Part shown: one piece after another, positions 15,129-31,800 of the stretch
Numbering within the stretch: position 1 is the stretch's first letter
Layout of the letters: each line of letters begins with the position of its first letter
From: a virus
IMG/VR virus record: IMGVR_UViG_3300037485_000496
Coordinates: 1 to 32,503 of that record
DNA length: 32,503 nt
Strand: one strand, 5' to 3'
Notes under the pieces: model-generated
Told to the model about the DNA's origin: nothing
Databases searched by the model: none
The model's input: only the letters and a program-made list of their open reading frames with translations
Translations under genes and position numbers: made by a program

Positions 15129-15522
15129 AAACTATTACTTCAATATTTGGGTCGTAACTGGTAATGGTTGCATCGCTGAACTCTAATAAACATTTGCCTC
15201 TTTCAAGTAAAGTATCGTTTTCGCTTGGACTTTCTCCACCTGTGTTAGTATAAAGTGAATACTCGTAAAAACCTTTCTCTTTTAAGTAAACAATTCCTTG
15301 TAACAAGTCCTCTCCTGCTGGTGTATCTATCACTTCTAAATTAAAATTGTCGCATCTTGGCAAATAACTTGATTGATTCACTAACATAACCCATTTAGTT
15401 ACCTTAGTAACTTGTGAGTATATACCAAACCAAGCTTGGTTCAATGTAGTTATGTTTGGGTCTGTAATATTTTCAGTACCAGTTAGCAGTATTTCATTAA
15501 CTCCATAAGTAAGATTGACCAT
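15115..15522 (-). CDS. Hypothetical virion-associated protein
   Basis: A 135-residue protein, beta-rich, starting MVNLTYGVNEILLTGTENI and containing YLPRCDNFNLEVID and GFYEYSLYTN. A common companion of portal genes in Bacteroidota phages, but I cannot name a function. It overlaps the portal start by 14 bases, so it is co-translated with head genes. Confidence 0.65.
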   Translation of the reverse strand: MVNLTYGVNEILLTGTENITDPNITTLNQAWFGIYSQVTKVTKWVMLVNQSSYLPRCDNFNLEVIDTPAGEDLLQGIVYLKEKGFYEYSLYTNTGGESPSENDTLLERGKCLLEFSDATITSYDPNIEVIVYDRE

Positions 15523-15563
15523 ATTTGATAATATAAAAAAGACATTTCGTTATAAAATAGAAA

Positions 15564-15584
15564 AGGTAGCCTTGTGAGCTACCT
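15564..15584 (-). terminator. Terminator after the tail-tube-like gene
   Basis: AGGTAGC and GCTACCT pair exactly around a 7-base loop (15564-15570 with 15578-15584), followed on the minus strand by TTTTCTATTTT. It closes the unit that starts behind the capsid terminator. No promoter is evident between it and the next start at 15522. Confidence 0.78.
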
Positions 15585-15616
15585 AATCTAACTATGAAAC
15601 AACCCTATCTTGAAGC

Positions 15617-16126
15617 CTATAATTTACTAAACGCTGAAGTTGAGGTTAAGATTTGAGCAGGAGCTGCCTCCATACCTGTCAAAGTAAGTTGAACTCCGTT
15701 AAAATCTCCCATTGCTGCACCTGAAGTATGTGAACCTGCACTAACTTCTAAGCCATTTACTTCACCAAGTAACCAAAAGCTACCGTCTTTTTTCTCAATG
15801 ATGGTTAATAATCTTGCTTGAGCTAAAGTGTACCACTTATTTCGTGATGTTTGACTCATTTTAGCAAAATTAGCTACTACTGTTTGAGTGTAGAAAACTG
15901 TCCCATTCGCTGGAGCTGCGGTAATCTCTTCAGTAAAAGAGTCTGCTGCTTGTGGCATTAACTCATACTTGTAGAAACTTACTCCACTCACGTTAGAAAT
16001 ACCTGAAGCAGTTGTACTTGTTATAGTAGCTGCACTTGGTAAACCATTTGCGAAATAGATATTCTTTAATCCACCAACTGCGTCTTTGCAATCAAGTGTA
16101 TATCCTGCTGTTACTGCACACGGCAT
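15617..16126 (-). CDS. Major tail (tube)-like protein
   Basis: A 169-residue protein. It starts MPCAVTAGYTLDCKDAVGG and contains YKYELMPQAADSFTEEI and, near the C-terminus, GEVNGLEVSAGSHTSGAAM then LTLTGMEAAPAQI. The LTLTG.E..P ending and the size are typical of tail-tube-type proteins encoded beside capsid genes in Bacteroidota phages. It stands alone between two terminators with a Shine-Dalgarno site, which fits high, separately tuned expression of an abundant virion protein. A decoration protein is the alternative. Confidence 0.6.
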   Translation of the reverse strand: MPCAVTAGYTLDCKDAVGGLKNIYFANGLPSAATITSTTASGISNVSGVSFYKYELMPQAADSFTEEITAAPANGTVFYTQTVVANFAKMSQTSRNKWYTLAQARLLTIIEKKDGSFWLLGEVNGLEVSAGSHTSGAAMGDFNGVQLTLTGMEAAPAQILTSTSAFSKL

Positions 16127-16134
16127 AATTTTTT

Positions 16135-16140
16135 CTCCTT
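16135..16140 (-). promoter_or_regulatory. Shine-Dalgarno site for the tail-tube-like gene
   Basis: AAGGAG lies 8 bases before the ATG at 16126 and just after the capsid terminator. Most genes here lack such a site, and Bacteroidota ribosomes use it little, so it marks this gene as unusual. Confidence 0.55.
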
Positions 16141-16155
16141 TTATTGTTTATAAAA

Positions 16156-16193
16156 AAGGGGATAAGGCTTGAACATTCAAACCGAATCCCCTT
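16156..16193 (-). terminator. Terminator after the major capsid gene
   Basis: On the minus strand AAGGGGAT pairs with ATCCCCTT (16186-16193 with 16156-16163), with a 22-base interior that itself holds the palindrome TTGAATGTTCAA, followed by a run of T. It lies 13 bases after the capsid stop and before the next gene. Partial termination would reduce expression of later genes relative to capsid. Confidence 0.8.
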
Positions 16194-16206
16194 CTTTGAT
16201 TATTAT

Positions 16207-17166
16207 TTAAGCTGCGCCTACGAAATAAACGATTTCAGCTGGGAATGCGATTTGAACACCTGCTTTGAATTCGCATACATAACGAACTTCCATTGACTCC
16301 TGCGCCCAGAATAATTGAAACTTACTTTCTTCGCCAAGTACATCACATCCGAAGAACATATTTGAAGTGCGTAATGCGTAGATTCTGTTAGTACCATTCA
16401 ATCCGTTTACTCCTACTACTTTGATGTTAGTACCAGGAATTGTAATTTCAAAGTTTGAGCTTGAAGCGTCTGTGTTGTAATGGAATAAGTTAGCGTTAGT
16501 TAAAGCTAATTGGTAAGTTCTGAAAGTATCAATACCTACGAATACCATTGTATCGGGTTTATCTACCAATGCAGCAGGAATAGCTCTGAATACACCTTGA
16601 ATGATGTTACTTACATTTGATACAGTAATTCCACCAGTAGCTGAGTAAGGCGCACCAGCCATAAATGCTGAAGAGTTAGCAGCGATTGCGCTACCTGAAA
16701 CCGAAGTTACAAGTTTAACCATTCCATCAAATTGAGCTAAAGCATTGTCACCGCTTCCAGTGTCACCCTGCCAAAAAGCTCTCTCCAAATTTTGTGCAAT
16801 TAAACCAGCTTTCAAGTCTGTGAATTGTTGCTCAAATGGAATTGATTTTGGATTTGAACCTGAAGGTAATACTAAACCTAACCAAGTGTTCTCTAATGTT
16901 TTTGGACACAAAGACTCGTGAACTTTAATCGGAGAAACAGTCATATTTCTGCGCGTAAAAGTTGTTGTACCTGATGCTACGAATCCACAAGATACACCTG
17001 ATTGAAATACTGCGTCAGTATCCATCAAGTTCAATTGAGAAGAAGATTTTACATTCGGCATTTTACTTGCCAAACTGATTGATTTTGCAGAGAATAAAGA
17101 CTTAGTCAATAATTCTCTTTCGTTGGCTTTTACGTAGCCAGTTAACGTTCCTACTGAGAATGCCAT
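16207..17166 (-). CDS. Major capsid protein
   Basis: A 319-residue protein right after the protease/scaffold gene, with the pattern common to capsid proteins of Bacteroidota phages: KSSSQLNLMDTDAVFQSG near residue 40, TFTRRNMTVSPIKVHESLCP near 70-95 and a C-terminal beta-rich region ending EVRYVCEFKAGVQIAFP. A HK97-like fold is expected. No large N-terminal delta domain is seen, so the scaffold is the separate upstream domain. A clear terminator follows. Confidence 0.88.
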   Translation of the reverse strand: MAFSVGTLTGYVKANERELLTKSLFSAKSISLASKMPNVKSSSQLNLMDTDAVFQSGVSCGFVASGTTTFTRRNMTVSPIKVHESLCPKTLENTWLGLVLPSGSNPKSIPFEQQFTDLKAGLIAQNLERAFWQGDTGSGDNALAQFDGMVKLVTSVSGSAIAANSSAFMAGAPYSATGGITVSNVSNIIQGVFRAIPAALVDKPDTMVFVGIDTFRTYQLALTNANLFHYNTDASSSNFEITIPGTNIKVVGVNGLNGTNRIYALRTSNMFFGCDVLGEESKFQLFWAQESMEVRYVCEFKAGVQIAFPAEIVYFVGAA

Positions 17167-17169
17167 TTT

Positions 17170-17769
17170 TTATTTATTTAATATGTTTAATATATCGTTT
17201 AATTTATTGTACTGATTATCTTTTTCAGCTTGAAAATTTACATTGAAAGGTTTAGCCTCAACGATTTCAGAAGGTGCGTCTGCTAACTTTTCTACGATTT
17301 CAACTAACTTAGAGAATGCGTCTTTTTGTGTATTCATTTTCTCTTCAGTTGCGCCCATCTTTTCAGCAATTTTAGCTTCTAAAGCTGCCAACATTTCTTC
17401 CATTTTCATAATCTTAGCACCCATTGCCTCAATCATTGGCAAATAATCTTCAGCCATTTTTTCTTTAGCTTCAATTTCAACTTCTACTGATGGCTCTTCT
17501 TCTGTTGGCATAACTTCAGGAACTTCTAAGGAAATTACTTTTCCGTTTTCAACAGTAATTTTTCTGCCGTCTTGAAGCTCGTGTTCGCCATCTGGTGCAG
17601 GAACTTCTCCTGATTCACTTACTACCATTACGCTGGTACCTTCTGCTAATGGTCCTTCCCACTTAATAATGGTCAATCCATCGGCTAACTTTGCCTCTTC
17701 AAAAGACATAGGAGCTTCTTCTGTGAATATCTCCTTTAATTTGCTTAAAAGCACTTTTACATCGCTCAT
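17170..17769 (-). CDS. Candidate nested scaffold protein (internal start)
   Basis: In-frame ATG at residue 344 of the protease gene, preceded by a strikingly AT-rich stretch inside the coding sequence (ACAAATAAT just before the ATG), which is the kind of leader Bacteroidota genes use. The 199-residue product would start MSDVKVLLSKLKEIF and contain only the acidic coiled scaffold. This is the layout of lambda C/Nu3, where free scaffold comes from an internal start. Inference only; no direct evidence of initiation. Confidence 0.4.
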   Translation of the reverse strand: MSDVKVLLSKLKEIFTEEAPMSFEEAKLADGLTIIKWEGPLAEGTSVMVVSESGEVPAPDGEHELQDGRKITVENGKVISLEVPEVMPTEEEPSVEVEIEAKEKMAEDYLPMIEAMGAKIMKMEEMLAALEAKIAEKMGATEEKMNTQKDAFSKLVEIVEKLADAPSEIVEAKPFNVNFQAEKDNQYNKLNDILNILNK

Positions 17770-18798
17770 ATTATTTGTATATATATTTGTTTTATTTAAT
17801 TGTAATTTATCAATCAATGCGATAGCTTCTTGAACATTGCTAACCATCTCTACTTTTCTATCCGTGAATAATCCCTCAACTGAAAAACCTTTAAACTTTC
17901 CACTCTTGATATAATCGTTCCAAATCTCTTCGTTATCTACTTTGCAGGAAATAAACCAAGAACCATCGGGCAACTCGTCAAAGCCTTCAGGAGTTTTTAT
18001 TCCTCTTTCTGAATCAATAATAAAAGACTCAATTAAGTACACCCCATCCGCCAACATATTCTTTTTATGTTGCAAGTTGAAGTTAGTTCCGTACTGGTTT
18101 TTGAAGTATCTCTCAACTATTTTTTGTATCGTCTCTTTTGAGAAAACTACGTTGTACTCTTCGCCATCTTTTGACCTACGATAAATAGGTTTGTCAGGAA
18201 TCATTGCAGCTCCTGAGATTATCTGTTTGTCGGTAGTTTTAAAGTTAAAGTTTTTCTTATCCCACTTAGTGTAGCAAATAGCTGCTGCTTGATCTTGTTC
18301 AATTCCGTTTCCGACTTCAACCGAAATACATCTACTGATAAACTCGTTCTTATCTTCTCCAGCTTTTGGTTCTACTACGAACTCGTCAATCTGTTTTAGT
18401 TTTCTACTTGCCCACTCTACCCCTTCGTCTCCGCCCCAAGCTAACCACATCAAAGCTCCGCAGTCCTCTTTCGGATCACCTTTAGAATTGTCTCTATGCC
18501 TTTCAAAACCTGACATTCTCGCAATCGTTTCTCTACTAAGGTTTTCTCCATTTGCTAATTGAGATGCCCTAACCCAGCCGACTTGAGTGCCGCAATCTAA
18601 GTTGTATTTTTCTTTTAATTCAATCGCTCTTTTTGCGTTCTCACTTGCTGCTTTTGGATAGTCGCTGTATGTCTCAAATTGACTTTCAAAAGCTACCCAG
18701 TCGTACTCAATTGCAGGAGAATCTACCAAAGCGATAAAGTCTACCCCAGTCTCTTCGTCTTCGTTAATGAGCAGCTCGTATAAAGGAAGTTTAGCCAT
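17170..18798 (-). CDS. Prohead protease (XkdF type) fused to scaffold
   Basis: A 542-residue protein with four parts. Residues 45-138 form a W/C/G-rich domain (DYPKAASENAKRAI ... CGALMWLAWGG) found in head proteins of related phages. Residues 143-181 carry a CxxxE...QAAAICY motif. Residues 192-312 match the XkdF-type protease: GAAMIPDKPIYRR, candidate catalytic His244 in NLQHKK and Ser306 in KGFSVEG. Residues 344-542 are acidic and coiled, a scaffold. It would guide capsid assembly and then cleave scaffold and capsid. It directly precedes the major capsid gene. An internal ATG at 17769 may give free scaffold. Confidence 0.8.
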   Translation of the reverse strand: MAKLPLYELLINEDEETGVDFIALVDSPAIEYDWVAFESQFETYSDYPKAASENAKRAIELKEKYNLDCGTQVGWVRASQLANGENLSRETIARMSGFERHRDNSKGDPKEDCGALMWLAWGGDEGVEWASRKLKQIDEFVVEPKAGEDKNEFISRCISVEVGNGIEQDQAAAICYTKWDKKNFNFKTTDKQIISGAAMIPDKPIYRRSKDGEEYNVVFSKETIQKIVERYFKNQYGTNFNLQHKKNMLADGVYLIESFIIDSERGIKTPEGFDELPDGSWFISCKVDNEEIWNDYIKSGKFKGFSVEGLFTDRKVEMVSNVQEAIALIDKLQLNKTNIYTNNMSDVKVLLSKLKEIFTEEAPMSFEEAKLADGLTIIKWEGPLAEGTSVMVVSESGEVPAPDGEHELQDGRKITVENGKVISLEVPEVMPTEEEPSVEVEIEAKEKMAEDYLPMIEAMGAKIMKMEEMLAALEAKIAEKMGATEEKMNTQKDAFSKLVEIVEKLADAPSEIVEAKPFNVNFQAEKDNQYNKLNDILNILNK

Positions 18799-18827
18799 AT
18801 ATTTAGATAGTTTTTTTTAGATAAGTT

Positions 18828-20669
18828 TTAACCTATTACAGCCTTAGCTTTAATAGAGTCAACTTTCTTTTGAGTATTGGTTATGTCGGTTTCTGTTACG
18901 TATACTTTTGTTAATCCTGTATTGTTTACGTCAATCGGTTCGGTATTGTCTATTCTCGTGAAACTACTTGAAGGCCTTGTCATTGGTGGGGCTGATATGT
19001 TTGCTGAACCTCCACTACTGCCAGGTACTTGAACCGCTAAAATTTTATTGACATTTTGAATACCAGCTGCAATAGCTGCTGCTGCACTTAATGGAGCTAA
19101 GAATACTGGGTCAATTTTGGCTGCTGCTGCATAGGCTGATGATGCTGCTAAGTAAGTATCAATTGTTGCTGCTGCAACTGCTAAGGCTTTTCCTTCTGCT
19201 GTGCTTTCACCAAGAATTCCTGAGAAAGTTTTTAATGCGCTTGAATAAATTTGTAATGCTGCGACTCTATTAGCTGCGACTTCATTATCAAGTTTTTTAG
19301 TAGCCTCTTTATTCTCTTTATTAATATCATATTTTTTCTTAGCAATCTCTGCCTCAATTGAAATTGTAGATTGTCCGTAGTCTTTAGCTGTTTGTAGTTT
19401 CTGTTCAAGCTCTTGTAACTCTAAACTCTGTTGTTCTTTTCTAATTTGGTCCTGAGTTAGATTATTATCATAGAGTAGTGTTTGTTGTTTTTTATAATAG
19501 TCTTCTGTCGCTTTATTGCTATCCTCAAATTCTTTATTCGCTCTATCAATCTCAGCCTTCTTTGCGTCATCTATTTCTTTCTGAGCTGCTAATTCAGATG
19601 CTACTTTTTCTTTATTTAATGACTCAATAGACTTAACTACTTTTCGCCTACGCATTATTGACTCAGCCTCTAACTCATTAACTCTTGCGATAGCTTCTGC
19701 CTCTTGTGCTAATGCCTCATCACTTGCAGATGTCAACTTGTTTCTTTCTTTTATTGCATTGGCTTTCTGTTTAGCGATAACTAATTCTTTTGCTGCTAAA
19801 CTTTCTTCAGATGCTGCTACTTCTTGGAGTGCTTTAATCCTTTCATCAAAAGTAGCATTCTCATCCTCCATCATTAATCTCGCAGCTGCCGTTTGTTTAG
19901 CTTGTTTGCTTCTTTCTATTCGTAGTCCTCTTTCAGCATCCTCTACGCCTTGTAAAATAGCTTCTATTCTTGCAGATTCTTTAGCTGCCTTAGTCGCTTC
20001 TGCTGCTACTTTGCTTACTTCATTGATTGCATTGCCTACTTTCTCAGTAATACCTTCAACTCCTAAAGTAACTTTGCCGACTGCATCCGCTGCTACTTGT
20101 CCAGCCTCTGAGAATTTACCTTCAAATAATAATCCAATCGCTTGTCCTAAAGCTGGGACTAACTCAATTAATCCTTCAAATCTATTCGTTATATTTTCTT
20201 GAATTAAATTAGCAAAGTCAGTTAGTGCTTGTTTTGGATTCTCAAACATCCCAATCAATAACTCAGTTACCTTAGCTAAAGAATTCATTACAACATCTAA
20301 CCCAGTTTTTAACCCAGCCATTACTTGGTCAAATTTATCTGCGCCTTCGTTTGTAGATGTAAAGGCTTTAAATAGTAAAAATAAAGTTCCAGCAATTGCG
20401 GCTAATACTGCACCGATAGGATTAGCTACTAAAGTCCACATAGCTTTTGCCGTATCTTTTAAGGCGTTAACTACGCCACCAATAGGTCCGGGCAAATCAG
20501 CAAAATCTTTTTTAGTTTCTTTGACTGCCTTACCTGTTTTTTTGGTAGTCTTCTCTGTATCTTTTAGATTTTCGTTTAGGTTTCCCGTAGCATTACTTAA
20601 CTCATCTATTTGCTCAACGGAATCACCAGTGTCAACTTCTGTTTTTATTTTGACATTATTTTGCGCCAT
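18828..20669 (-). CDS. Tail tape measure protein
   Basis: A 613-residue protein with the usual build: a charged, coiled N-terminus (about 1-55), a hydrophobic glycine/alanine-rich segment (about 80-105, IGAVLAAIAGTLFLLFKAF), further hydrophobic stretches to about 190, long Ala/Glu/Lys coiled coils (about 205-480) and an alanine-rich helix near 500-545. Tape measures set tail length and are ejected with the DNA. At about 0.15 nm per residue the tail would be about 90 nm (inference). It is followed by the prohead protease, not preceded by the major tail protein as usual. Confidence 0.8.
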   Translation of the reverse strand: MAQNNVKIKTEVDTGDSVEQIDELSNATGNLNENLKDTEKTTKKTGKAVKETKKDFADLPGPIGGVVNALKDTAKAMWTLVANPIGAVLAAIAGTLFLLFKAFTSTNEGADKFDQVMAGLKTGLDVVMNSLAKVTELLIGMFENPKQALTDFANLIQENITNRFEGLIELVPALGQAIGLLFEGKFSEAGQVAADAVGKVTLGVEGITEKVGNAINEVSKVAAEATKAAKESARIEAILQGVEDAERGLRIERSKQAKQTAAARLMMEDENATFDERIKALQEVAASEESLAAKELVIAKQKANAIKERNKLTSASDEALAQEAEAIARVNELEAESIMRRRKVVKSIESLNKEKVASELAAQKEIDDAKKAEIDRANKEFEDSNKATEDYYKKQQTLLYDNNLTQDQIRKEQQSLELQELEQKLQTAKDYGQSTISIEAEIAKKKYDINKENKEATKKLDNEVAANRVAALQIYSSALKTFSGILGESTAEGKALAVAAATIDTYLAASSAYAAAAKIDPVFLAPLSAAAAIAAGIQNVNKILAVQVPGSSGGSANISAPPMTRPSSSFTRIDNTEPIDVNNTGLTKVYVTETDITNTQKKVDSIKAKAVIG

Positions 20670-20790
20670 TCAATACCTCGTTTTCTGTGTTAATGATTAT
20701 ACTTAATATACTTGAATCAGCTAAATCAATTAATTTAATTAGCTCTTCAAATTCAGTTTGTTCAATTAACTCTTTTAATTTATCCAACAT
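20656..20790 (-). CDS. 44-residue protein between tail tip and tape measure
   Basis: ATG at 20790, 11 bases before the end of the large tail gene; stop inside the first 14 bases of the tape measure gene. The product (MLDKLKELIEQTEFEELIKL then IDLADSSILSIII) is one amphipathic helix followed by a hydrophobic stretch. It bridges the only gap between its neighbours and ends with GAGGT upstream of the tape measure start, so it may couple translation. Unknown function. Confidence 0.5.
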   Translation of the reverse strand: MLDKLKELIEQTEFEELIKLIDLADSSILSIIINTENEVLNGAK

Positions 20791-23395
20791 TTGTATTATT
20801 ATTTAAGATTACTTGCCATCCACCACCATAATTTGCAAACCAAGCTGTATGCTTAGATTTTAAAGTAAAGCTTGTACTGCCTTCTATTGTTTGCCCAGCA
20901 ATTGGGTAAATAGTTGTACTTCCATGATGTTTATTGTGAGTTATTATTATAGGGTACCCCGTTTTTAACTTAGGTAAATTTGCATCGGGTAGATACACTC
21001 TGGTTGATCCATCAATTAACCAAATCTTTTGAGTAAAATCTATTGACACTATACCATCGTTAGTGTAACTAATATCTGTATAGTTCTTACTTCTGTCAAA
21101 TAAAAAAGGATTATTTTCATCCTTAAATAAATCGGGCAAAAGAATCTCAGGTAAGTTCGGCTGCTCAGGTTCGTAAGTTGCGTAGCCTCCGTTTGTTGTG
21201 GTATTCTCGCTAATAAACGCAGGGGCTAATTTTAATTTAAGGAACTCAATCTTAACAGGCTCGTCTGAGTTCATATCGTACTCTACGTTGTGCAGCCTGT
21301 AATATTGTTGGTCAATTCGGTAGTAGTCCCTAAACGATAAATTAGCTAATTGATTAGGTGAAAGATGAAAGTAACCGCTAACGAGTTTAGAATCTTTGTC
21401 GGTAATCTCTGAAATGGTTTTAAGCCAATAAGAGTTATAAAGGTTTGCCGTAGTTATTGCAGGTTTACTTCCATACTGATAGGCTCTTGCTGTTGAACAT
21501 TCTAAACTAAAAGTCGGAGCTGTAACACTATTTAACATTCCTGCATAAGGAAACTCTTCATACCTTACAAATCCTGTCGCTGCGGTTTGCCACAAGTTCC
21601 ACCCTGTTGAAGTATTTACTAAACCTCCGTATTGCAAAAGTCTAATATTATAAACAGGTAATTGGCTTGAACCTGTTGAGGGGTCTTGCGGTCTTATCTT
21701 AGTTAGTACCCTATCGTTTGCCGTTGAATCTGCCAAAGGACTTGCAGAAAATCCAAGATCAACTGTTTTGGCATCTCTTACAAAGTCGTTGTTAACGTTG
21801 AATTTTAAAGTGCTAAATGATTCTCTAAAAACGTCTTCGTATCTTTTATTGAACTCGTCTGAATCTGACTTGTAAGACATTTCAAATACTCTGAAGTCAA
21901 GTAAACCCATCGGCTTTATTTCAAGCTCTTGTGATACATCTAAATAGTTAGTAAGGTCTACTAAGTTCTCAGTATAAAATTCATCTCTCGGCTCAATGAT
22001 TAGTTTTTTAGGGTCAATCTTATCTACCTCAACGTATAAGTTAAAAGCCTTAATTAAATACTGAAGGAACTCTGTTTGCTTTGTCTTCTCAGGTAGTGCC
22101 GATGCTATGTCAATATCTTGACCTTCTTGGTAGGTTGCTTCAGGGTTTGAATAAAGAGCGAATCCACTCGCAAAGGTTATTGAAATATTTGTTGCATTGC
22201 CACTTGTAAATAATGGGCGATAGTACATATTTAAATAAACCTTATCTCCTGCAATTATATCAGAGGGGATTGTTTGTAGGCTTACATCATAACTGTTACC
22301 CGCTATTACCCCTTTATTTAATTGCCCTATTGTAGTTAATGCTGAGCTTCTTTCTCTAATAATGCTTAAATAAACTAACATTACTCCACCTGTTCCACTG
22401 GCTGAAATTGTGCCTTCAAAAGCAAATCTGTACTTACCATTTAATCCGCTTGGAGCTAACCACCAATGATTAGCCGTACTTACTCCTGTTGGGTCTGTAT
22501 CGTTGTCGTTTTGATTAAAACCTACTTTAAATGTTTGCGATTGATTAGCTGTTGAACTGGTATAAGTTAATGCCGTGTTATTAGTCATTAAAAAAGTTCG
22601 GTCCTCTACTTCATTCTCAGTCATTCTAAAATCGCCACCGCAAAAAGGTACTATTAGGTTTTTGAATCGTTGACTATTAAAAAAGTTAGATTCGTACCTG
22701 TAACCTGCACCAGCAAAAATAGAATCTACTATTTGTTTAGTGTAGATAGCAGGGTAAAAAGTTGCAAGATTGTAATCGTTCTCAGTATTCCCGTTTGAGT
22801 TTCCTCTGTCTATTAGTGGGTAAACATATCCAGTCCCATCGGGTTGGCCACTTGCGTTGAAATTTACATAGGTAGTACCGTTCTTTATTATTGAGGTGTC
22901 CCAGCTATTTTCTACGTTTGTTTTATTCCATCCGTGAGTGAACTCAGATAAGTCTAACTCTTGCAAACTCAACTCTCCTAAATCCTGAAATAGATTTGCG
23001 AACTTACCAATCATAACGCATTCGTACTCTATCGCTCCATCTACATTCTTAATACTTAGCAATTGCACGTAACCTCTTAGCTGTTGGATTCCTTTTCTGT
23101 AAAGTATCGCCTCAGCTTTTAAGTTCGGGTTAAAGTCAGGTTGAAAGTTTAAGTTAGTTGTGTTTATTACTGACCTATCAAGATTGAAAATACTTGAGAA
23201 TAAAGAATGATTATTTGCGGTGCCAGGAATCGTTATAGATTTTGAATAATCACTCTGTCTTTTATCAGGTTCTCTAATATCTATAATAGTCTTGTTAACT
23301 GGTAAAGGTATTGAGTCGTACAAATCCACGTTAAAGGAATCAGTAACTATTCCTGAAGCGTTGTAAACTACTATTTTTAGTTCTGTTTGGTTCAT
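20780..23395 (-). CDS. Large tail protein (distal tail/baseplate type)
   Basis: The largest protein of the window, 871 residues. The N-terminal 130 residues (LYDSIPLPVNKTIIDIREPDK ... SDYSKSITIPGT) look like a tail-attachment region common in Bacteroidota phages; the rest is beta-rich, and the C-terminal 100 residues (VYLPDANLPKLKTGYPIIIT ... GGGWQVILNN) resemble a short tip or fibre-like domain. It likely forms the tail tip. No enzymatic motif is visible. A small gene starts within its last 11 bases. Confidence 0.65.
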   Translation of the reverse strand: MNQTELKIVVYNASGIVTDSFNVDLYDSIPLPVNKTIIDIREPDKRQSDYSKSITIPGTANNHSLFSSIFNLDRSVINTTNLNFQPDFNPNLKAEAILYRKGIQQLRGYVQLLSIKNVDGAIEYECVMIGKFANLFQDLGELSLQELDLSEFTHGWNKTNVENSWDTSIIKNGTTYVNFNASGQPDGTGYVYPLIDRGNSNGNTENDYNLATFYPAIYTKQIVDSIFAGAGYRYESNFFNSQRFKNLIVPFCGGDFRMTENEVEDRTFLMTNNTALTYTSSTANQSQTFKVGFNQNDNDTDPTGVSTANHWWLAPSGLNGKYRFAFEGTISASGTGGVMLVYLSIIRERSSALTTIGQLNKGVIAGNSYDVSLQTIPSDIIAGDKVYLNMYYRPLFTSGNATNISITFASGFALYSNPEATYQEGQDIDIASALPEKTKQTEFLQYLIKAFNLYVEVDKIDPKKLIIEPRDEFYTENLVDLTNYLDVSQELEIKPMGLLDFRVFEMSYKSDSDEFNKRYEDVFRESFSTLKFNVNNDFVRDAKTVDLGFSASPLADSTANDRVLTKIRPQDPSTGSSQLPVYNIRLLQYGGLVNTSTGWNLWQTAATGFVRYEEFPYAGMLNSVTAPTFSLECSTARAYQYGSKPAITTANLYNSYWLKTISEITDKDSKLVSGYFHLSPNQLANLSFRDYYRIDQQYYRLHNVEYDMNSDEPVKIEFLKLKLAPAFISENTTTNGGYATYEPEQPNLPEILLPDLFKDENNPFLFDRSKNYTDISYTNDGIVSIDFTQKIWLIDGSTRVYLPDANLPKLKTGYPIIITHNKHHGSTTIYPIAGQTIEGSTSFTLKSKHTAWFANYGGGWQVILNNNTNVG

Positions 23396-24600
23396 AATGA
23401 TTGGCGATAATTATCAAATGTGTATTCAATCGTTAACTGAAGAGAGCTTATTTGTCTATCGTTTATGTATTGTTTCTCCTCGTAGTTGCTCTCCTTAATG
23501 TTTACGGGTATATAGGTCGCTCCGTATTCCATCATTACTACTGGACTTAGTACTAACTCTTTTAAGCCTATCCATTCTGCATCGGTTAACCCATCGGAAT
23601 TTATTTGAATCGTGTCCGTAAGTTTAGTAAAATAGTTTGTTTTAGCTCTGAAGGTCTTTGGATAGTTCAAAGGTTGAAATTTCTTAAACATCTTTCTTTC
23701 TATATCGGTAAAGTTTCTGCTTACCTTAGTAAATGTATAAGCATCAAAGCCTCCTAAGTTGTTTAGCCAATGTAGGCGAATTGGTGAATACTTTTGGCAA
23801 GTTGTATCTATCAAGAAAGTTCTGCTGAAATAAGTAACTGCGCCACTACCAGCCGTATTCTGACCATTAACCCTATAATATACAGCATTCGGATAATCAA
23901 AAGCCGCATCGTAAACCGATTTGTAATATCCAGTTGCATTACCTGAGTTAGCAACATTGACAGAAACAATTGAACCGAATGGAGTGAACCCTGCATTTGA
24001 TTCAATTAATAAATTTAGATTTTTATCAAGTACCTGAACATTAATATTAGCAAATAAACCCTCTCTATCAAATATAGTTAAGAATCTTTCCTCACCTTGT
24101 CTTAGCTTCTCTTGGTAGGTAGTTTGGTTCAAAGTTTTTAAAGAGCTTTCAGGCGGTCCTATGTTTAAACTCGTGAAGGCTGTTTTACTCCAGTCTAAGA
24201 AATCAAAGATTGCATTTGTTGAATGAGCATTGCTACCACTTGTATAAAAGTTAATTAAGTTTGGATAAATTACAGGTACCCCTGATGCGTTGTTTCTCAC
24301 CTCACCGAACTCTACCCAATAGTCAACTTTTGAATTGATACAGTGGTAAATACCCGAAGCGTTATAACTTGCAAAGTCATAACTAACGTATTGCCTCAAC
24401 ACCTCGCTCACATCTACGTCAACTGTATTAATGTTAGGCTGTTTAGGGTAAGTCAATCTTGCGACTGGATTCGTTTGTCCGCTTACATTTATGTCTACTA
24501 AGAATTGAAAACCAGCAGCAGTTGCGTTGGTGCTTTCCAATCCAAACACCATCTCGTTATAAACATTCTGCCAATTATTAGGACTTGAATTTATTATCAT
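23392..24600 (-). CDS. Putative minor tail protein
   Basis: A 402-residue protein rich in beta-forming residues and N, T, Y. It starts MIINSSPNNWQNVYNEMVF and has no catalytic motif that I recognise. It sits between the completion protein and the 871-residue tail protein and overlaps both by 4 bases, so a distal tail or baseplate-type role is likely. Family not recognised with confidence. Confidence 0.6.
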   Translation of the reverse strand: MIINSSPNNWQNVYNEMVFGLESTNATAAGFQFLVDINVSGQTNPVARLTYPKQPNINTVDVDVSEVLRQYVSYDFASYNASGIYHCINSKVDYWVEFGEVRNNASGVPVIYPNLINFYTSGSNAHSTNAIFDFLDWSKTAFTSLNIGPPESSLKTLNQTTYQEKLRQGEERFLTIFDREGLFANINVQVLDKNLNLLIESNAGFTPFGSIVSVNVANSGNATGYYKSVYDAAFDYPNAVYYRVNGQNTAGSGAVTYFSRTFLIDTTCQKYSPIRLHWLNNLGGFDAYTFTKVSRNFTDIERKMFKKFQPLNYPKTFRAKTNYFTKLTDTIQINSDGLTDAEWIGLKELVLSPVVMMEYGATYIPVNIKESNYEEKQYINDRQISSLQLTIEYTFDNYRQSL

Positions 24601-25223
24601 TTTAAAATATTTTTTGTTATTGTAATCTCTATTGACCTTCCTAACGCATCAGCTAAACCTTGAGCGAATGCTGCCACATTTCTTTCGCTTAGTGCATCAT
24701 TAATAAAATTAGTTGGTTTTATACCTTCTCTCTTTATACCGATACCCATTGCGTAGGCCATTTGGGTTTTCTCGTCAATTTGTTTTTTCTTTCTTTGGTT
24801 CTTAGTTAAGTTTCTTGTTTGTGAGTATCTACTCTCAATCGGGATGCCTCGTTTAGTAATCCACTTTCTTAGTGACTTGTTAAAGGCTGGACTTACTGAC
24901 TCTTTTTTGAATGAATAAGGAGAATTGAATTTGTTTCTGGTACCACTTACACCTTGATTGAGAAAATCTCCGTAGTAATTCATTTCAATAGACATCTCAA
25001 AGCTATTGCCATTTGAACTCAAAGGCAAAGTTATAATTGACTGAACTAACTCCGAATCCGCATAGTAAGCATCTAACTCGGTAAGGTTAGATTTCATCGT
25101 GTCGGTTAACCCATTGACAAACCTAACTAAGGCTTCCTCAATAATAGAGTCAAACTGAACTTCACCAGCCTCAGCATCTGTGCCTAAATCGCCTAAAAGT
25201 TTAGTGTAGTCTGTTTCTGCCAT
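24597..25223 (-). CDS. HK97-gp10-like head-tail/tail completion protein
   Basis: A 208-residue protein. The centre (YYGDFLNQGVSGTRNKFNSPYSF) and the C-terminal YAMGIGIKREGIKP ... FINDALSE resemble the HK97 gp10/tail-completion family, where a short FLN.GV.G motif precedes a basic loop and the protein ends with a G.KP..F...A helix. Such proteins sit at the head-tail joint. Starts inside the frameshift extension and overlaps the next gene by 4 bases. Assignment by pattern and place. Confidence 0.55.
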   Translation of the reverse strand: MAETDYTKLLGDLGTDAEAGEVQFDSIIEEALVRFVNGLTDTMKSNLTELDAYYADSELVQSIITLPLSSNGNSFEMSIEMNYYGDFLNQGVSGTRNKFNSPYSFKKESVSPAFNKSLRKWITKRGIPIESRYSQTRNLTKNQRKKKQIDEKTQMAYAMGIGIKREGIKPTNFINDALSERNVAAFAQGLADALGRSIEITITKNILK

Positions 25224-25458
25224 TCTCTTTTTTTATCTGTTCAGTGTGTTCTATGTGGTAGCTTACTATATTAAAAAACTCCTTCAGTCTTAAATTAAAA
25301 AAGTAATCCCATTTGGTTTTATCGTGGTTTGCAAGGTTGTCTATTGTTGCGACCCATCCCCATTTTGTATAAAAGTTCTGAGCCTGTTCAAAGTCTCCTC
25401 CTTCGTGCTTAGGAAATAAGTTAGGATATTGTCCGATAATTTGGCGGAGAGAGTGCAA
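25201..25458 (-). CDS. Frameshift extension of the preceding gene (-1 frame)
   Basis: An 85-codon frame that overlaps the preceding frame by 118 bases. It has no ATG: its first possible start is a TTG formed by the end of the T9 run, and no ATG occurs upstream before a stop codon near 25500. It therefore is best read as the C-terminal part of a -1 fusion, entered after codon 158 of the gene starting at 25931. The sequence looks like real protein (NFYTKWGWVATIDNLANHD, then a helix EFFNIVSYHIEH). Its stop overlaps the next start by 23 bases, as nearly all other junctions here do, whereas the unshifted stop would leave a 117-base gap. Confidence 0.7.
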   Translation of the reverse strand: MHSLRQIIGQYPNLFPKHEGGDFEQAQNFYTKWGWVATIDNLANHDKTKWDYFFNLRLKEFFNIVSYHIEHTEQIKKENGRNRLH

Positions 25459-25931
25459 AAAAAAAGCATAATCGGGTAAGCGTCTTTTACTTTCATTTGG
25501 TTAAGTAGTAACTCACTTATCTCATCGTGTTCACTACCATCGTACTTACTTGGTTTTCCGTATCTCCAGTTAATTGGTCTAATGCAAGATGCCACTATCT
25601 TATGTATGTTCTCAATCGGGTTGGATTTAGAAAAGTGCGAAATGTCTATGAATTGGCTGCTACTAATTTGACTTAACCTGTAATCCACAAAGAACCATCT
25701 ACCGCCTACCTTAACTCTTTTCTTGTAGGTAGTCTTAATCGGTTGTGCTTCTAACTTTTCAAAGTCACTGTAAAGGCTTATTATTTGCTCCGAAGTAAAA
25801 CCATCAAAGAATTCAAGTTCAATTTTGTAGACAATAGAAAGTTTCTTTTTCTTACCTTCAATTCCCGACTCAGTTACCTTTTGAAGTTCTATGAAGTCCT
25901 TTAAAGTTAAATTATAGTAATTGCGTTTCAT
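25341..25931 (-). CDS. Upstream frame of a slippery-site gene; tail-assembly-chaperone-like
   Basis: A 196-residue protein if translated without slippage. It starts at ATG 25931. Codons 156-159 read CTT TTT TTT TGC across a run of nine T on the coding strand (25457-25465). A -1 shift there would replace the last 38 residues by an 85-residue extension, giving about 243 residues. No domain is recognised, but a -1 slip giving short and long products is characteristic of tail assembly chaperones (lambda gpG/gpGT). Position after the terminase and before the tail genes fits, though it lies about 4.7 kb before the tape measure rather than next to it. Alternatively it is one intact gene broken by a homopolymer miscount. 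Confidence 0.7.
   Translation of the reverse strand: MKRNYYNLTLKDFIELQKVTESGIEGKKKKLSIVYKIELEFFDGFTSEQIISLYSDFEKLEAQPIKTTYKKRVKVGGRWFFVDYRLSQISSSQFIDISHFSKSNPIENIHKIVASCIRPINWRYGKPSKYDGSEHDEISELLLNQMKVKDAYPIMLFFCTLSAKLSDNILTYFLSTKEETLNRLRTFIQNGDGSQQ
25456..25466 (-). other. T9 slippery run for -1 frameshift
   Basis: On the coding strand the sequence is C followed by nine T and then GC. In the zero frame it reads CTT TTT TTT TGC, which contains the heptamer T_TTT_TTT. Slippage by -1 (ribosomal) or insertion of one U (transcriptional) enters the downstream open frame. A sequencing error in the homopolymer would give the same picture. Confidence 0.65.
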
Positions 25932-25949
25932 TCTATATTATATATTTTT

Positions 25950-27104
25950 TTAGGCTCGGATTGTAACATATTGACCCCTTCTGTGTTCTTGTAGTTTCAT
26001 CAAGGCTAAGTACCGTGTGGCGTCTATTAAGTGGTTATTGAAGTCCACAGGTTCATTGACTATCTTACCAGCCTTATCCGTTTTCCACTTATAGGTGCGG
26101 AACTCCTTTTGCAGGTTGTTTCCAATTAGGTGCAGTTTATATCGTCTAAGTATGTCTATTGAGTTAATAATGCTGTCCTTGCCTTTCTGTGTAGGCTTGA
26201 TGTTATAACCTAACCGATATACTTCTTCAATAGATTTCGGTTCAGCAGAATCAGCAAATATCTCCTTTCTACCAATCTCCAAACTCTTTAATCGTTCAGC
26301 TATGTCTTGGTTAGTCAAACCTCTGTCGTATAGTTCCTCTCTTATGTAAAGCTCTTGCTCATACTTCCAAACTGAAACCAATGCGGTAGGGTCAGCACTA
26401 AATCCCCAGTCTAAACCATACCCGATAAAGTTAGCTTCGTTTGGTACAACTACTTGATTAGTCCAATTGTTGAATACTAAACCCATTAATTGTCCTCGTT
26501 CGCCTAAACCAAAGATTTTCCAGTATTCAGGATCAGCCTGTTCTAAACTTTCTATTTCCCTTTTAAGTGCATCGGGTAAATGTGGGTTATCTTTGTAAGT
26601 TGTAATAATCAATCCGCAATCGTCACGGGTTAATACTTGGTCATAAATCCAGTGTTCAAAGTCAGAAGGGTTATAATCAATAATTACCTTGCCAGTCGTT
26701 CTAAGTAGTAACTGCCTCCAGTCTTCAAGGTCTATCTCGTTTGCTTCGTTTACAAATAGTATATCTCTTTTCCTGCCTCGTATCTTCTGAGCATCGTCTA
26801 CACTAAAAAACTCAATAAGGTTTTTGTTGAGTATATAAGTGTTCTCCGACTTATTGTGGTCGCTTTCGTGGTAATGATTTATTGAGGTAAGTATCTCAAT
26901 AAAGTCTCGCATAGCTGATGACTTCAAAGCTGGTAGTGTTTTCCGCACTATTGATATAGTCATTCCCTCATGTTTGAGGCAAAGTCGGATTAACCATTGC
27001 AGAGCTGAATAAGTCTTACCTGAACGAGTACCACCTTGTAGTGCGACTATTCGTTTACTCTTTACTGACTTTTCTAAAAAAACTAAATTAGGATTAAAAA
27101 TCAT
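25950..27104 (-). CDS. terL: Terminase large subunit
   Basis: ATPase and nuclease that packages DNA into the prohead. In 384 residues the N-terminal ATPase domain has the Walker A motif GGTRSGKT at 24-31 and a Walker B-like RDILFVNEANE at about 112-122. The C-terminal RNase H-like nuclease domain shows its acidic residues in YGLDWGFSADPTA, IFADSAEPKSIEE and LIDATRY. Length is slightly below the usual 400-450 but both domains are complete. It resembles the PBSX/Terminase_3 group. A 19-base gap separates it from the next gene. Confidence 0.93.
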   Translation of the reverse strand: MIFNPNLVFLEKSVKSKRIVALQGGTRSGKTYSALQWLIRLCLKHEGMTISIVRKTLPALKSSAMRDFIEILTSINHYHESDHNKSENTYILNKNLIEFFSVDDAQKIRGRKRDILFVNEANEIDLEDWRQLLLRTTGKVIIDYNPSDFEHWIYDQVLTRDDCGLIITTYKDNPHLPDALKREIESLEQADPEYWKIFGLGERGQLMGLVFNNWTNQVVVPNEANFIGYGLDWGFSADPTALVSVWKYEQELYIREELYDRGLTNQDIAERLKSLEIGRKEIFADSAEPKSIEEVYRLGYNIKPTQKGKDSIINSIDILRRYKLHLIGNNLQKEFRTYKWKTDKAGKIVNEPVDFNNHLIDATRYLALMKLQEHRRGQYVTIRA

Positions 27105-27467: not shown

Positions 27468-28508
27468 TTATTTGATTTTATCTAACCATTGTAATCGAAT
27501 TTGATTTGCTATTTGTGCTGTCATTACAGGCGGAACACTCATTCCGATTAAATACTTTGGTTCTACTTTTTTGAAATTGTAATCAAGTGGGTAAGAACCG
27601 CAAACTTGAAAATCATAATCTGAAAACCAACTTTTATCTATTGCTCTAAATTGTTTTCCACCACTTGTTATAGTTGGCGCAACATCTGAATCGTGAACAA
27701 CATTATCTGTAAATCCAGAACCTTTGCCAAAATGTTTAATTTCTATTTGCTCTAATGTTTTTTCAGTAGTTAAATAACTTAATGTTTTAATTTGCCTTTC
27801 AGTTAATGTTTTAAAATTACCTTGCTTACTTCTTACATTTCCAAACGGAATTGCATCTTCATTAAACTCTAATTTTAATTTCGGCAAATTTAAATCTTTT
27901 CTTTGGCAAATAAAAAACACTCGTTCTCTTTTCTGCGGAACGCCCATTGAAGCCGCATTTAAAAGAAACAACTGAACATTATAACCTGCTTCATCAAATG
28001 CTTTAAAAATACGTTTAACATACAATTTAGCGTTACCTTGAATTAATCCTTTTACATTTTCAGCAAGTACAATTTTAGGCTGTAATTTTTTTGCAAGTTC
28101 AATGTATTCAAAAAACAAATCGTCTAAAACTTGTTGAGCTTGTCCCTCTTTAAATACTTTACTTTTACCCCAATCTTTTTCCCTATTTCCTGCCATTGAA
28201 AAACTTGAACAAGGCGGTGAACCATCTAATAAATCTAAGTTGTAAAGTTCTTGAGGTATATCCGAACGCTTTACAAAATTTCTAATATCTTCTAAATATA
28301 AATATTTTGGATTGTGATTTGTTTTGTAAATATCTGCAATCGGTGGGTCAATTTCAACGCCACCTAAGTGATTAAACCCTGCTAACTTGTACCCCATTGT
28401 TGAACCACCGCCACAAATAAAAGTGCCAAAAACATTATAATTATTTGGTTGTATATTCTTTGACGGATAGCCGTCTTTTAAATACCATTTATAAGGAAAT
28501 AAGTGCAT
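27468..28508 (-). CDS. DNA C5-cytosine methyltransferase
   Basis: Transfers a methyl group from S-adenosylmethionine to carbon 5 of cytosine in DNA, probably protecting phage DNA from host restriction. All core motifs are visible in 346 residues: motif I FGTFICGGGSTMGYKLAGF at 27-45, the catalytic PPCSSFS with Cys100, ENV at 150-152, QKRER at 192-196, and the C-terminal motif X region SVPPVMTAQIANQI. The region between motifs VIII and X is the target recognition domain; its specificity cannot be read. No partner endonuclease is nearby, so it looks like a solitary methyltransferase. The ATG at 28508 overlaps the ParB-like gene. Confidence 0.92.
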   Translation of the reverse strand: MHLFPYKWYLKDGYPSKNIQPNNYNVFGTFICGGGSTMGYKLAGFNHLGGVEIDPPIADIYKTNHNPKYLYLEDIRNFVKRSDIPQELYNLDLLDGSPPCSSFSMAGNREKDWGKSKVFKEGQAQQVLDDLFFEYIELAKKLQPKIVLAENVKGLIQGNAKLYVKRIFKAFDEAGYNVQLFLLNAASMGVPQKRERVFFICQRKDLNLPKLKLEFNEDAIPFGNVRSKQGNFKTLTERQIKTLSYLTTEKTLEQIEIKHFGKGSGFTDNVVHDSDVAPTITSGGKQFRAIDKSWFSDYDFQVCGSYPLDYNFKKVEPKYLIGMSVPPVMTAQIANQIRLQWLDKIK

Positions 28509-29034
28509 CGTAAAGTATTTTTTCAGCTGTTTGTCCTAACTCCTGTAATCGTTCTTTGACTAAGTTATAATCGTCCTCTGAATATTCTAATTTAATAGTA
28601 TATTTCTGATCCTCAAAATCATTCAAATCTAACTCTTTGTTTTTTTCTGAGTAATCAACATCAGTTTCAAAAGTAGGTATTTCTAAACCCCAATCTTCTA
28701 ACTGCTCAACATCCCATTCATTTGCTAAACTATCCCAATCCCATTCTCCAAAGCCTACGTTGTCTTTAATAATAAATTCTTTTTGCTGTTCTTCACTCAA
28801 TTCACTTGCTTTTATAATTGGTACTTCTTTTAATCCAGCCTCCTTACAAGCTTTCAATCGCATATTACCTCCTAGCACAATCATATCTTCATTTACTACA
28901 ATTGGTCTAAGCTCTAACATTTGAGGAAAGTCTTTTATTGACTGAACAAGTTTTTTAAATTTGTCATCCTTTATAATTCTTGGGTTATTAGGATTTGGCT
29001 TTAATTCAGATATTTTTATTTTATTAATATTCAT
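28489..29034 (-). CDS. ParB N-terminal-domain-like protein
   Basis: A 181-residue protein whose first 100 residues match the ParB/Srx nuclease-like fold: ISELKPNPNNPR at 8-19 and the phosphate-binding GGNMRLKA at 55-62. In chromosomal ParB this fold binds CTP; in phages such proteins commonly sit beside DNA methyltransferases and terminases. The C-terminal half is acidic and lacks a recognisable HTH, so it is not a complete partition protein. It overlaps the methyltransferase gene by 20 bases, which suggests a shared role in DNA modification or packaging. Confidence 0.75.
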   Translation of the reverse strand: MNINKIKISELKPNPNNPRIIKDDKFKKLVQSIKDFPQMLELRPIVVNEDMIVLGGNMRLKACKEAGLKEVPIIKASELSEEQQKEFIIKDNVGFGEWDWDSLANEWDVEQLEDWGLEIPTFETDVDYSEKNKELDLNDFEDQKYTIKLEYSEDDYNLVKERLQELGQTAEKILYDALISL

Positions 29035-30079
29035 AGTTTTTAAATAAATCTTTTCTTAACTCGTTTATCTTTAATATATTGAAATTGGTGTAAATTTCTT
29101 GATATAAGGCTTCGCCTAAGTCTTTTCTCATCTCTTTGCTGTCTATTAACTTCTTTATGTTTTTATACCAATCGTTTTTATTAGCTACTAAGGAGTTTAT
29201 CCCGTGTTTAGCTATGTTGGTGTAGGGATATTGATTTGAGACAATTACAGGAAGCTTCTTTGCCCCCATTTCCATCATCTTTAATTCTGACTTGCAACGG
29301 TTAAATTCGGTATCCTTCAAAGGTATTAATCCGACATCCATCATATCGTAAGCACTCGCATAGGTATATACGTCCATTCCGTTTATTCTGCAATATTGGT
29401 CTTCTGCTATTTTGTAGCCACTTGTAAACATCTTCTCGTATTCCTTCCAAATCATATCCCCTTCAGCAAATCCGCTCAAAACAAGTCTATATTTTCCTTT
29501 TAAGTCTGGATTAGAGTTCATTTGCATAAAAGTGTCGGTTAGCATTACAATGTCTTTGAAGTGAGTAACGGAACCGCTCCAGCCTATGTGAACTTTCTCA
29601 GTCTTTAAGTTCTGAACTTTTACATCGGGTTGGAATTGTTTTTGGTTAAAGTCTATTGCGTTGGGAATTACAAACACATTCTTGTTAAACTGTCTAACTT
29701 TTTGGGCAAGATACTCGGTAGGAACTGTGACAGCGTCAGCCATTTTTAAATTGTAGACTATTTGCTCGGCAGTTTTATTCGCTAACCAGTCTTTCTTCAT
29801 TATATGGTCGTGAGGCAAAATCCAATCATCGTCTCTATCAACTATTACTGGGATACCTAATCTTTTTAACTGCGCCCAAGCTACCTCTTGAAAGCCTGAC
29901 TTACTGACTACTGAACTCGTATATATTAAATCAAACTCTTTGAAGAATTCATCGGATTGATGGTCTATATTCTTTACTCCAGTAATTTTGTAATCGCTGC
30001 CCATATTCTCAAAAGGCATTATTAACCGATGGTATTCTACTCCAGTTACTGGTTCAGGTATTATTACAAGTATTTTCAT
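29024..30079 (-). CDS. Glycosyltransferase family 4-like (GT-B)
   Basis: A 351-residue protein of normal length for GT4. The N-terminal Rossmann domain starts MKILVIIPEPVTGVEYHRL. A linker reads VFVIPNAIDFNQ, the typical VIPNGID-like hinge. The C-terminal domain starts VHIGWSGSVTHFKD and includes PLKDTEFNRCKSELKMMEMGA, the GT4 segment with acidic and small residues that binds the donor sugar. It is the clearest enzyme of the three-gene glycosyltransferase block. It overlaps the ParB-like gene by 11 bases. Acceptor unknown: host polysaccharide, phage protein or DNA are all possible. Confidence 0.8.
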   Translation of the reverse strand: MKILVIIPEPVTGVEYHRLIMPFENMGSDYKITGVKNIDHQSDEFFKEFDLIYTSSVVSKSGFQEVAWAQLKRLGIPVIVDRDDDWILPHDHIMKKDWLANKTAEQIVYNLKMADAVTVPTEYLAQKVRQFNKNVFVIPNAIDFNQKQFQPDVKVQNLKTEKVHIGWSGSVTHFKDIVMLTDTFMQMNSNPDLKGKYRLVLSGFAEGDMIWKEYEKMFTSGYKIAEDQYCRINGMDVYTYASAYDMMDVGLIPLKDTEFNRCKSELKMMEMGAKKLPVIVSNQYPYTNIAKHGINSLVANKNDWYKNIKKLIDSKEMRKDLGEALYQEIYTNFNILKINELRKDLFKNYEY

Positions 30080-30813
30080 AGTAGTGAAAGGATTTCTGAT
30101 TGCTTGGTTTGTTCGTGTAAAACTAATCTGTGTTTTAATTGATTCTCTCTTATTTCATCTAAGTCATAATGCTCACCTACTACTGCCATATTGTAGTTAG
30201 GTATCAAAATGTCTTGGTATCCAAAATCGTAAGTACCTCTGTCCATTATAATAGGTACTCCGTAGCTGATAGCTTTTACTACCGCATTGCATAAGTAACC
30301 GCATCTTTTAATATGTACTAAGGCTTTCATTCCTTCCTCAAATAGCTCAGAGTCGTTTCTTTCTCCTAATTCGTTTTCTTGCCCATATACCAAAGCTCCT
30401 AAACTTAAAGCCTGATAATAGCCTTGTTCGTCTCTTTGTTTATAAAAGTGAATAATTGAAACAAGTTTGTCATTTATTGGTGCAGGTTCGTAAAGTTTTA
30501 CAAGTGGGGGTAAAATAACACCATCCCCTAACCAATGCTTTTTATGTTCAGAGTTTTTAAGGATTGCCCTTGTATATCCTGCATAAAAATATGAGTTAAT
30601 GTGCATCGGGTGTACGCAAAAAATAATAATGCAGTCCTTTCTCCTATCGTGTGGAATTTCTCCTGCAAACGGTCCATCGTGTACAAATAGCAAATCAAAG
30701 TCAGTCGGAGGTCTATCCCCTAAAAATCTTTCACAGTCTAATCCTGCTAAATTTAGAAAGTGTTTAACTCTTTCGTATTCGTCTGGGTGTTTATCCCAAT
30801 AAACTATTTTCAT
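30076..30813 (-). CDS. Glycosyltransferase-like protein (GT-B type)
   Basis: A 245-residue protein. The C-terminal half has the acceptor/donor-domain pattern of GT-B glycosyltransferases: HIKRCGYLCNAVVKAISYG followed by PIIMDRGTYDFG, where a conserved acidic/aromatic stretch normally contacts the nucleotide sugar. The N-terminus (MKIVYWDKHPDEYERVKHFL) is a Rossmann-like start. Shorter than full GT4 enzymes (about 350), so it may be a reduced or accessory member. Overlaps both flanking glycosyltransferase genes by 4 bases. Substrate unknown. Confidence 0.5.
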   Translation of the reverse strand: MKIVYWDKHPDEYERVKHFLNLAGLDCERFLGDRPPTDFDLLFVHDGPFAGEIPHDRRKDCIIIFCVHPMHINSYFYAGYTRAILKNSEHKKHWLGDGVILPPLVKLYEPAPINDKLVSIIHFYKQRDEQGYYQALSLGALVYGQENELGERNDSELFEEGMKALVHIKRCGYLCNAVVKAISYGVPIIMDRGTYDFGYQDILIPNYNMAVVGEHYDLDEIRENQLKHRLVLHEQTKQSEILSLL

Positions 30814-31565
30814 ATTAATTGATTAAGTGCGTTTTTAAATCCATTTTGATTAAATACATCGTAGAATTCCCCACCTACTGGAATGACATTTGGGCAGCCA
30901 AAGTACATTTCAAGTATTCTTTCTGTTTGTAGTTGCTCAGCAATTGCAAAACACATTGATTGATTCCCGATAAATACTTTACTCTTGTCTATGTAGTGAG
31001 CTAACTCTAAAAAGTCTTTTACTTCTAAATACTCAAGACTTGGAATAGTCTTTTTCATTACTTCAAATTCTTGCCTAACTCCAACAAATAACTTTTGATT
31101 ATTGTAATTGTTAATAATTGAGTAATCTATTTGCCCATTCTGATACCTATTGGTTCTATTGATTAGAATATAATCCTCTTTTTTATTGTTAAATTCAAAA
31201 ATAGGTCCTTCTATGTCAAAGGTCATTTCAGGATAGGCATAATAGTACCATTTCTTGATGTCAGAAGCGCACAAATTTAAGCCTATATGTCTAAATCTAT
31301 CTAAATCGTAGTCTATTTTTTGTTTATCATAAACCATTACATCTGAAATAAATGAACAAGAAAGTAATAAAGGTCGGAGATTCTTGTACATATACTCGTT
31401 TAGCATAACATTACCAAGCGGGTGGTTAGGCATAAACCCAATTGAGCGTTGGTCTAAGTGCAGGAATAAAACTGCCTGAGTGTCGTTTGCCTCACATACT
31501 TGCTTAATTGCGTTGAGTGAGTAGATTATATCCCCAGTGTTGCCCGAATGTTTAAATTTTAGCAT
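30810..31565 (-). CDS. Glycosyltransferase-family-9-like protein
   Basis: About 251 residues from the ATG at 31565; a longer non-ATG start at 31601 is unlikely because the family normally opens with a sequence like MLKFKHSGNTGDIIYSL. The N-terminal GDIIYSLNAI segment and the late FIGNQSMCFAIAEQL segment match the nucleotide-sugar-binding layout of heptosyltransferase (GT9, GT-B fold) proteins. The known role of the fold is transfer of a sugar from an activated donor. Phage versions may modify host surface glycans, virion proteins or DNA; nothing here says which. It overlaps both neighbours and forms a three-gene glycosyltransferase block with the two genes that follow. Confidence 0.6.
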   Translation of the reverse strand: MLKFKHSGNTGDIIYSLNAIKQVCEANDTQAVLFLHLDQRSIGFMPNHPLGNVMLNEYMYKNLRPLLLSCSFISDVMVYDKQKIDYDLDRFRHIGLNLCASDIKKWYYYAYPEMTFDIEGPIFEFNNKKEDYILINRTNRYQNGQIDYSIINNYNNQKLFVGVRQEFEVMKKTIPSLEYLEVKDFLELAHYIDKSKVFIGNQSMCFAIAEQLQTERILEMYFGCPNVIPVGGEFYDVFNQNGFKNALNQLI

Positions 31566-31800
31566 TGCGTTTCCTTTTCTTTTCAGGTGTATAGTTATCA
31601 AATTGTCTAAATACTCGTGTAATTAATTCCTGAACGCAAGACTGACAGCCCATATTTCTAGGAGGTGCGCCAAACATTAAACTCCAAGCTTCCTGAACTA
31701 TTGTATAGTCTTGGTTAGTGAATATTGAATGATGTTCGTTTTTAAATGTTTCCCATTTTGGCTTCAATGGTAAAAGGATTTCATAGATTGTTTGATTCAT
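31552..31800 (-). CDS. Hypothetical protein with CxxC motif
   Basis: An 82-residue soluble protein. It carries one CQSC motif in the sequence GAPPRNMGCQSCVQELI and a basic C-terminus (KKRKRNAK). One CxxC pair could bind metal as a dimer, but there is no second pair. Its start overlaps the preceding stop (ATGA) and its end overlaps the glycosyltransferase-9-like gene by 14 bases, so it belongs to the glycosyltransferase operon. Function not recognised. Confidence 0.6.
   Translation of the reverse strand: MNQTIYEILLPLKPKWETFKNEHHSIFTNQDYTIVQEAWSLMFGAPPRNMGCQSCVQELITRVFRQFDNYTPEKKRKRNAKI

Follow-up and report, generated by a model that had tools for sequence, protein, structure and literature searches.

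The window analysed here, a 32,503-nucleotide stretch of viral DNA (positions 1 to 32,503 of the IMG/VR record IMGVR_UViG_3300037485_000496), carries on its minus strand a gene in which a run of nine T joins two overlapping reading frames, and this gene is most likely the tail assembly chaperone pair (G/GT-type) of its phage family, a reading to which we give a probability of about 0.75. The programmed −1 frameshift itself is, judged from comparative sequence evidence, almost certainly real. One gene would thereby yield two products with a common N-terminus, a short form of 196 aa and a long form of 243 aa, the latter carrying a KWGW domain; as with lambda gpG/gpGT, the tape measure protein would be coated by the short form in many copies and by the long form in few, and the extension of the long form would recruit tail-tube subunits. 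Frameshifting in tail chaperones is a classic example in the study of gene expression, and what is described here appears to be a new, unannotated and hitherto unreported variant of it, a literature search having found no report of this frameshift family.

The short product corresponds to a zero-frame ORF at 25341–25931 (minus strand, 196 aa), which contains a putative G-like chaperone domain and whose residues 1–158 are common to the short and long products. The slippery T9 run, the proposed site of the programmed frameshift, lies at 25457–25465 and is read CTT TTT TTT TGC in the zero frame. The −1 frame extension (25201–25458, minus strand) comprises 85 codons without any ATG, bears the KWGW motif as a putative T-like domain, and gives a joined product of 158 + 85 = 243 aa; a shift at a run of this kind, T9–T12 across the family, would produce the joined reading ..L-F-F-L... 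The two ORFs overlap by 118 bases, both frames being open 3′ of the run at 25341–25456, where the zero frame encodes the tail of the short product, and the stop of the −1 ORF lies within a 23-base overlap with the next gene, whose ATG is at 25223. An earlier note, made from the letters of the window, had described the run with its zero-frame codons, the 85 open codons lacking an ATG and both overlaps, and had predicted products of 196 and 243 residues; every measured detail proved correct, the product lengths being confirmed by ORF reading, although its description of the 23-base overlap as the standard spacing of this genome is loose, gene overlaps being variable. The run is the only A9 or T9 in the window, against a mean of 8.8 in dinucleotide shuffles, which indicates that long runs are avoided elsewhere and kept at 25457–25465.

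Relatives were fetched by protein similarity, and the peptide patterns used excluded the T run. The pooled set comprised 207 loci with 157 distinct proteins, falling into 31 groups at 70% identity and 9 at 50%. The run was T9 in 159 loci, T10 in 45 and T12 in three, was shorter than nine T in none of the 207, and led into the −1 frame in all of them; no in-frame fusion of the two parts was found among these relatives. The slippery junction proposed earlier is therefore real and conserved, with the same −1 outcome at each run length, and the question raised with it, whether homologues keep the run or are one fused frame, is answered in favour of the former. In the close-relative set, 48 of 48 loci had exactly T9, and the lengths of the zero-frame and −1 parts were constant within each clade, while divergent relatives (down to about 15–30% identity) carried T9, T10 or T12. 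The run lay inside the overlap in 131 of the 132 evaluable loci of the broad set, the lone exception being L235, in which a T10 sits just upstream and the −1 frame contains a stop. This locus (1934–1990) keeps its T10 intact, but its −1 frame meets a TGA ahead of the KWGW domain, and it is either a degenerate copy or a sequence error. Within 1.3 Mb of these phages, 207 of the 231 runs of T9 or longer were the frameshift site. The in-phase heptamer T_TTT_TTT was present in every one of the 207 loci, including those in which the run has moved one base against the reading frame (L298, L307, L309, L308 and L240–L242) and is still nine or ten long; in three lineages with one T before the two TTT codons, extra T downstream restore a length of nine or ten. 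A scan of genome contigs with the extension gave no confirmed relatives and hence no prophage or host link.

Two cultured Nonlabens phages of the genus Inhavirus, P12024L and P12024S, carry a homologue directly after the terminase, with a T9 run read CTT TTT TTT TAT; the −1 extension contains KWGW in P12024L and KWSW in P12024S. These pairs (P12024L gp40+gp41 and P12024S gp38+gp39) resemble the window gene in the post-terminase position, the T9 and the −1 extension, but they have been deposited as two hypothetical proteins and share only about 15% identity with the window protein. P12024L gp41 and P12024S gp39 (each at 12528–12695, in L160 and L161, respectively) correspond to the C-terminal portion of the extension, their annotated start being an internal ATG. 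P12024L infects Nonlabens (Persicivirga) sp. IMCC12024, and a fused product in this phage would read ..CILFF-LSFR.. across the junction. Searches of cultured phages with the window proteins, the extension of the divergent relative L122 and the fusion from L157 gave no matches, and P12024L and P12024S were reached only from the short form of L122. Because homologues sit in these Nonlabens phages, Bacteroidota hosts are suggested for the phage family with the frameshift gene. In Flavobacterium phage 6H (NC_021867; L162 10056–10927), gp10 (191 aa) is a weak structural and profile relative. The gap behind it, some 305 nt long, holds a −1 frame ORF that lacks annotation and is possibly an overlooked chaperone extension, but there are only six T and an intervening stop.

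The pattern of variation across the gene follows the proposed shift. In a codon-position analysis of 25 distinct sequences from the nearest clades, 138 of the 155 zero-frame third positions ahead of the run were variable, whereas beyond the zero-frame stop it was the −1 frame third positions that varied (39 of 46, versus 7 of 46 and 15 of 45 for the other positions). Codon-position variation thus moves from the zero frame to the −1 frame across the run, in which none of the nine positions is variable, and in the overlap constraint acts on both frames. Past the run the zero frame is open for another 25–57 codons, whereas the +1 frame reaches a stop after a median of about four. When the −1 protein is recoded synonymously, the zero frame is open that far in a fraction of 0.02–0.35 by lineage, values that are not independent probabilities as the lineages are related. 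Since the zero frame is open further than most recodings allow, the short product appears to have its own maintained tail, the stop position of which is conserved. The run, both frames and the −1 direction are thus conserved across the sequences compared, and both the 196-aa and the 243-aa proteins are probably made.

Two explanations would dispense with a programmed shift. Homopolymers are error-prone and the two ORFs abut at one, so that a homopolymer miscount, raised in the earlier note, or more generally an error of sequencing or assembly, or else a frameshift mutation of recent origin, in one continuous gene, had to be considered; this explanation is refuted. A miscount is excluded because the same junction and frame recur in 207 loci from many independent metagenomes and in two cultured phages, and an error would account neither for the T10 and T12 relatives, which still need a −1 shift, nor for a zero-frame tail that is kept open to a conserved stop. 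It is also very improbable that these are two separate genes, with the KWGW protein initiating by itself, from a TTG in the run or by translational coupling, and no fusion being formed. The deposited annotation of P12024L and P12024S does start the second gene at an internal ATG, and the −1 ORF of the window offers a TTG where the run ends; however, the window extension is without an ATG, the TTG is not shared throughout the family (relatives with T10 and T12 read TTT followed by CTA or TTA there in the −1 frame), and an independent start would need neither nine T nor an in-phase heptamer.

The lambda and HK97 tail chaperones have the same architecture, a short and a long form generated by a −1 shift (PMC5009743). 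Like lambda gpG/gpGT, the window gene combines a short form with a longer −1 form in a tail cluster upstream of the tape measure, but the two have no sequence similarity, the mixed heptamer of lambda is replaced by a T9–T12 run, and the overlap is 118 nt in the window gene against 19 nt between the annotated lambda G and T. The gene order differs as well, as the lambda, HK97 and TP901-1 chaperones adjoin or lie near the tape measure. In the window, all on the minus strand and in the same direction, the gene is preceded directly by the terminase large subunit (25950–27104; Terminase_3 6e-20, Terminase_3C 5e-18) and followed by proteins of 208 aa (24597–25223; phrog_29822), 402 aa (23392–24600) and 871 aa (20780–23395), the last just upstream of the 613-aa tape measure protein (18828–20669; phrog_20660, tail length tape measure, with PHROG tape-measure matches). 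The terminase and the three intervening genes are conserved neighbours: the terminase lies just upstream in 164 of the 196 loci with enough upstream sequence, and the order terminase, frameshift gene, 208, 402, 871 is kept in distant relatives. The earlier note had placed the gene after the terminase and three genes before the tape measure and had called this an unusual place; the placement holds, and the unusual place is itself conserved. No other small gene stands directly before the tape measure in the window, which leaves no rival chaperone candidate there. Across 12718–27104, the tail genes (the chaperone candidate, the 402- and 871-aa genes and the tape measure) come before head-looking genes encoding a 319-aa capsid-like and a 610-aa portal-like protein, the reverse of the usual siphophage order. 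A 169-aa protein at 15617–16126 is a candidate for the tail-tube protein. Upstream of the terminase, at 27468–31601, are a DNA cytosine-methylase-like gene and three glycosyltransferase-like or related proteins.

Fold comparisons were made with the short form and the extension folded separately. The short form, modelled by AlphaFold with a mean pLDDT of 85.5, matched many uncharacterised phage proteins and, at 2e-7, P12024S, and the named virus matches were tail assembly chaperones, those of ctCpR1 (E 0.04, probability 0.91) and Kitkat (E 0.36), with weak E-values. The top aligned solved structure was the HK97 chaperone 2OB9 (Z 3.6, 56 residues, 2.7 Å, 12% identity), a match that covers the N-terminal 62 residues with a Z below the aligner's own safe level; 2OB9 was absent from the PDB list of the Foldseek search with the short form at E ≤ 10. 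HK97 gp13, with its frameshifted chaperone form, is likewise an annotated −1 frameshift pair, but it differs from the window gene in gene order and slippery site, and the structural match is weak. Comparison with lambda, HK97 gp13, TP901-1 and T4 proteins revealed no sequence similarity, no named Pfam or PHROG family was found for the frameshift gene, and its profiles returned nothing credible against PDB sequences; sequence dissimilarity is usual within the tail-chaperone functional class (PMC5009743). Two candidate relationships were rejected. T4 gp26/gp51 were considered because the weak fold list of the extension includes a cyanophage Gp51 (E 4.8) and because a paper cited in PMC10885494 describes T4-like chaperones, but they have no similarity to the frameshift-gene profiles; phrog_166 ('tail protein') gave weak matches in 7 of 38 members, 3.7e-4 at best.

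The tail-chaperone resemblance pointed out in the earlier note is therefore the best functional reading, and tail-chaperone function is considered probable on the basis of architecture, position, the absence of a rival candidate by the tape measure and weak fold similarity. The shift might instead be real in a protein that is not a tail chaperone, for example a head–tail or packaging factor tied to the terminase. The constancy of the terminase as upstream neighbour (164 of 196 loci), the lack of sequence similarity to known chaperones and the weak fold evidence would fit such a factor, but the downstream neighbours are also conserved and run on into the tape measure, no other chaperone candidate lies beside it, and the named viral fold matches are tail assembly chaperones, so that we regard this alternative as unlikely.

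Which machine slips is a separate question, as slippage by RNA polymerase and by the ribosome gives an identical protein. We lean towards polymerase slippage, with one U added to the transcript, because of the nine-T minimum and because no strong RNA stimulator was found. Transcriptional slippage sites are typically homopolymers of eight or more (PMC3711429), and bacterial polymerase slips on runs of nine A or T, as on the T9 of Thermus dnaX (PMC5009743); the minimum of nine across the 207 loci agrees with this threshold of about nine or more A or T. The Thermus thermophilus dnaX gene resembles the window gene in its nine-T slippage run and two products (PMC5009743), but it is unrelated, and its frameshifted product is the shorter one. 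Downstream of the run no strong or clearly conserved stimulatory RNA structure was found, the mean folding z versus shuffles being −0.78 at +6 to +46 and −0.12 at +3 to +103, with controls at about −0.2. Ribosomal −1 frameshifting on U_UUU_UUU, with an unaltered mRNA but the same proteins and function, has in our view a little under an even chance. It would explain why T_TTT_TTT is in the right phase in 207 of 207 loci, those with a run shifted by one base included, it is how the known phage chaperone frameshifts are described (PMC5009743), and folding 6–46 nt downstream is slightly above random. Against it, seven T would suffice for the heptamer, whereas the shortest run at any locus is nine; in E. 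coli, U_UUU_UUU shifted far less readily than A_AAA_AAG (PMC5009743); and a clear conserved stimulatory structure is lacking. Some of the T could also be kept by constraint on the encoded residues, which are L-F-F in both frames.

The conserved run marks a tail-chaperone candidate in a group of phages that is widespread and poorly annotated, and with it the annotation of the cultured phages P12024L and P12024S is corrected. These two phages can be grown, so that the choice between polymerase and ribosome is directly testable in them. The nine-T minimum, kept despite the one-base displacement of the run, is an unusual evolutionary clue to the slipping machine. We tentatively suggest, at somewhat less than even odds, that the tail-chaperone ratio of a large, probably Bacteroidota, phage family is set by polymerase slippage on T9–T12; if true, this would be the first case of a tail chaperone that owes its two forms to slippage during transcription.
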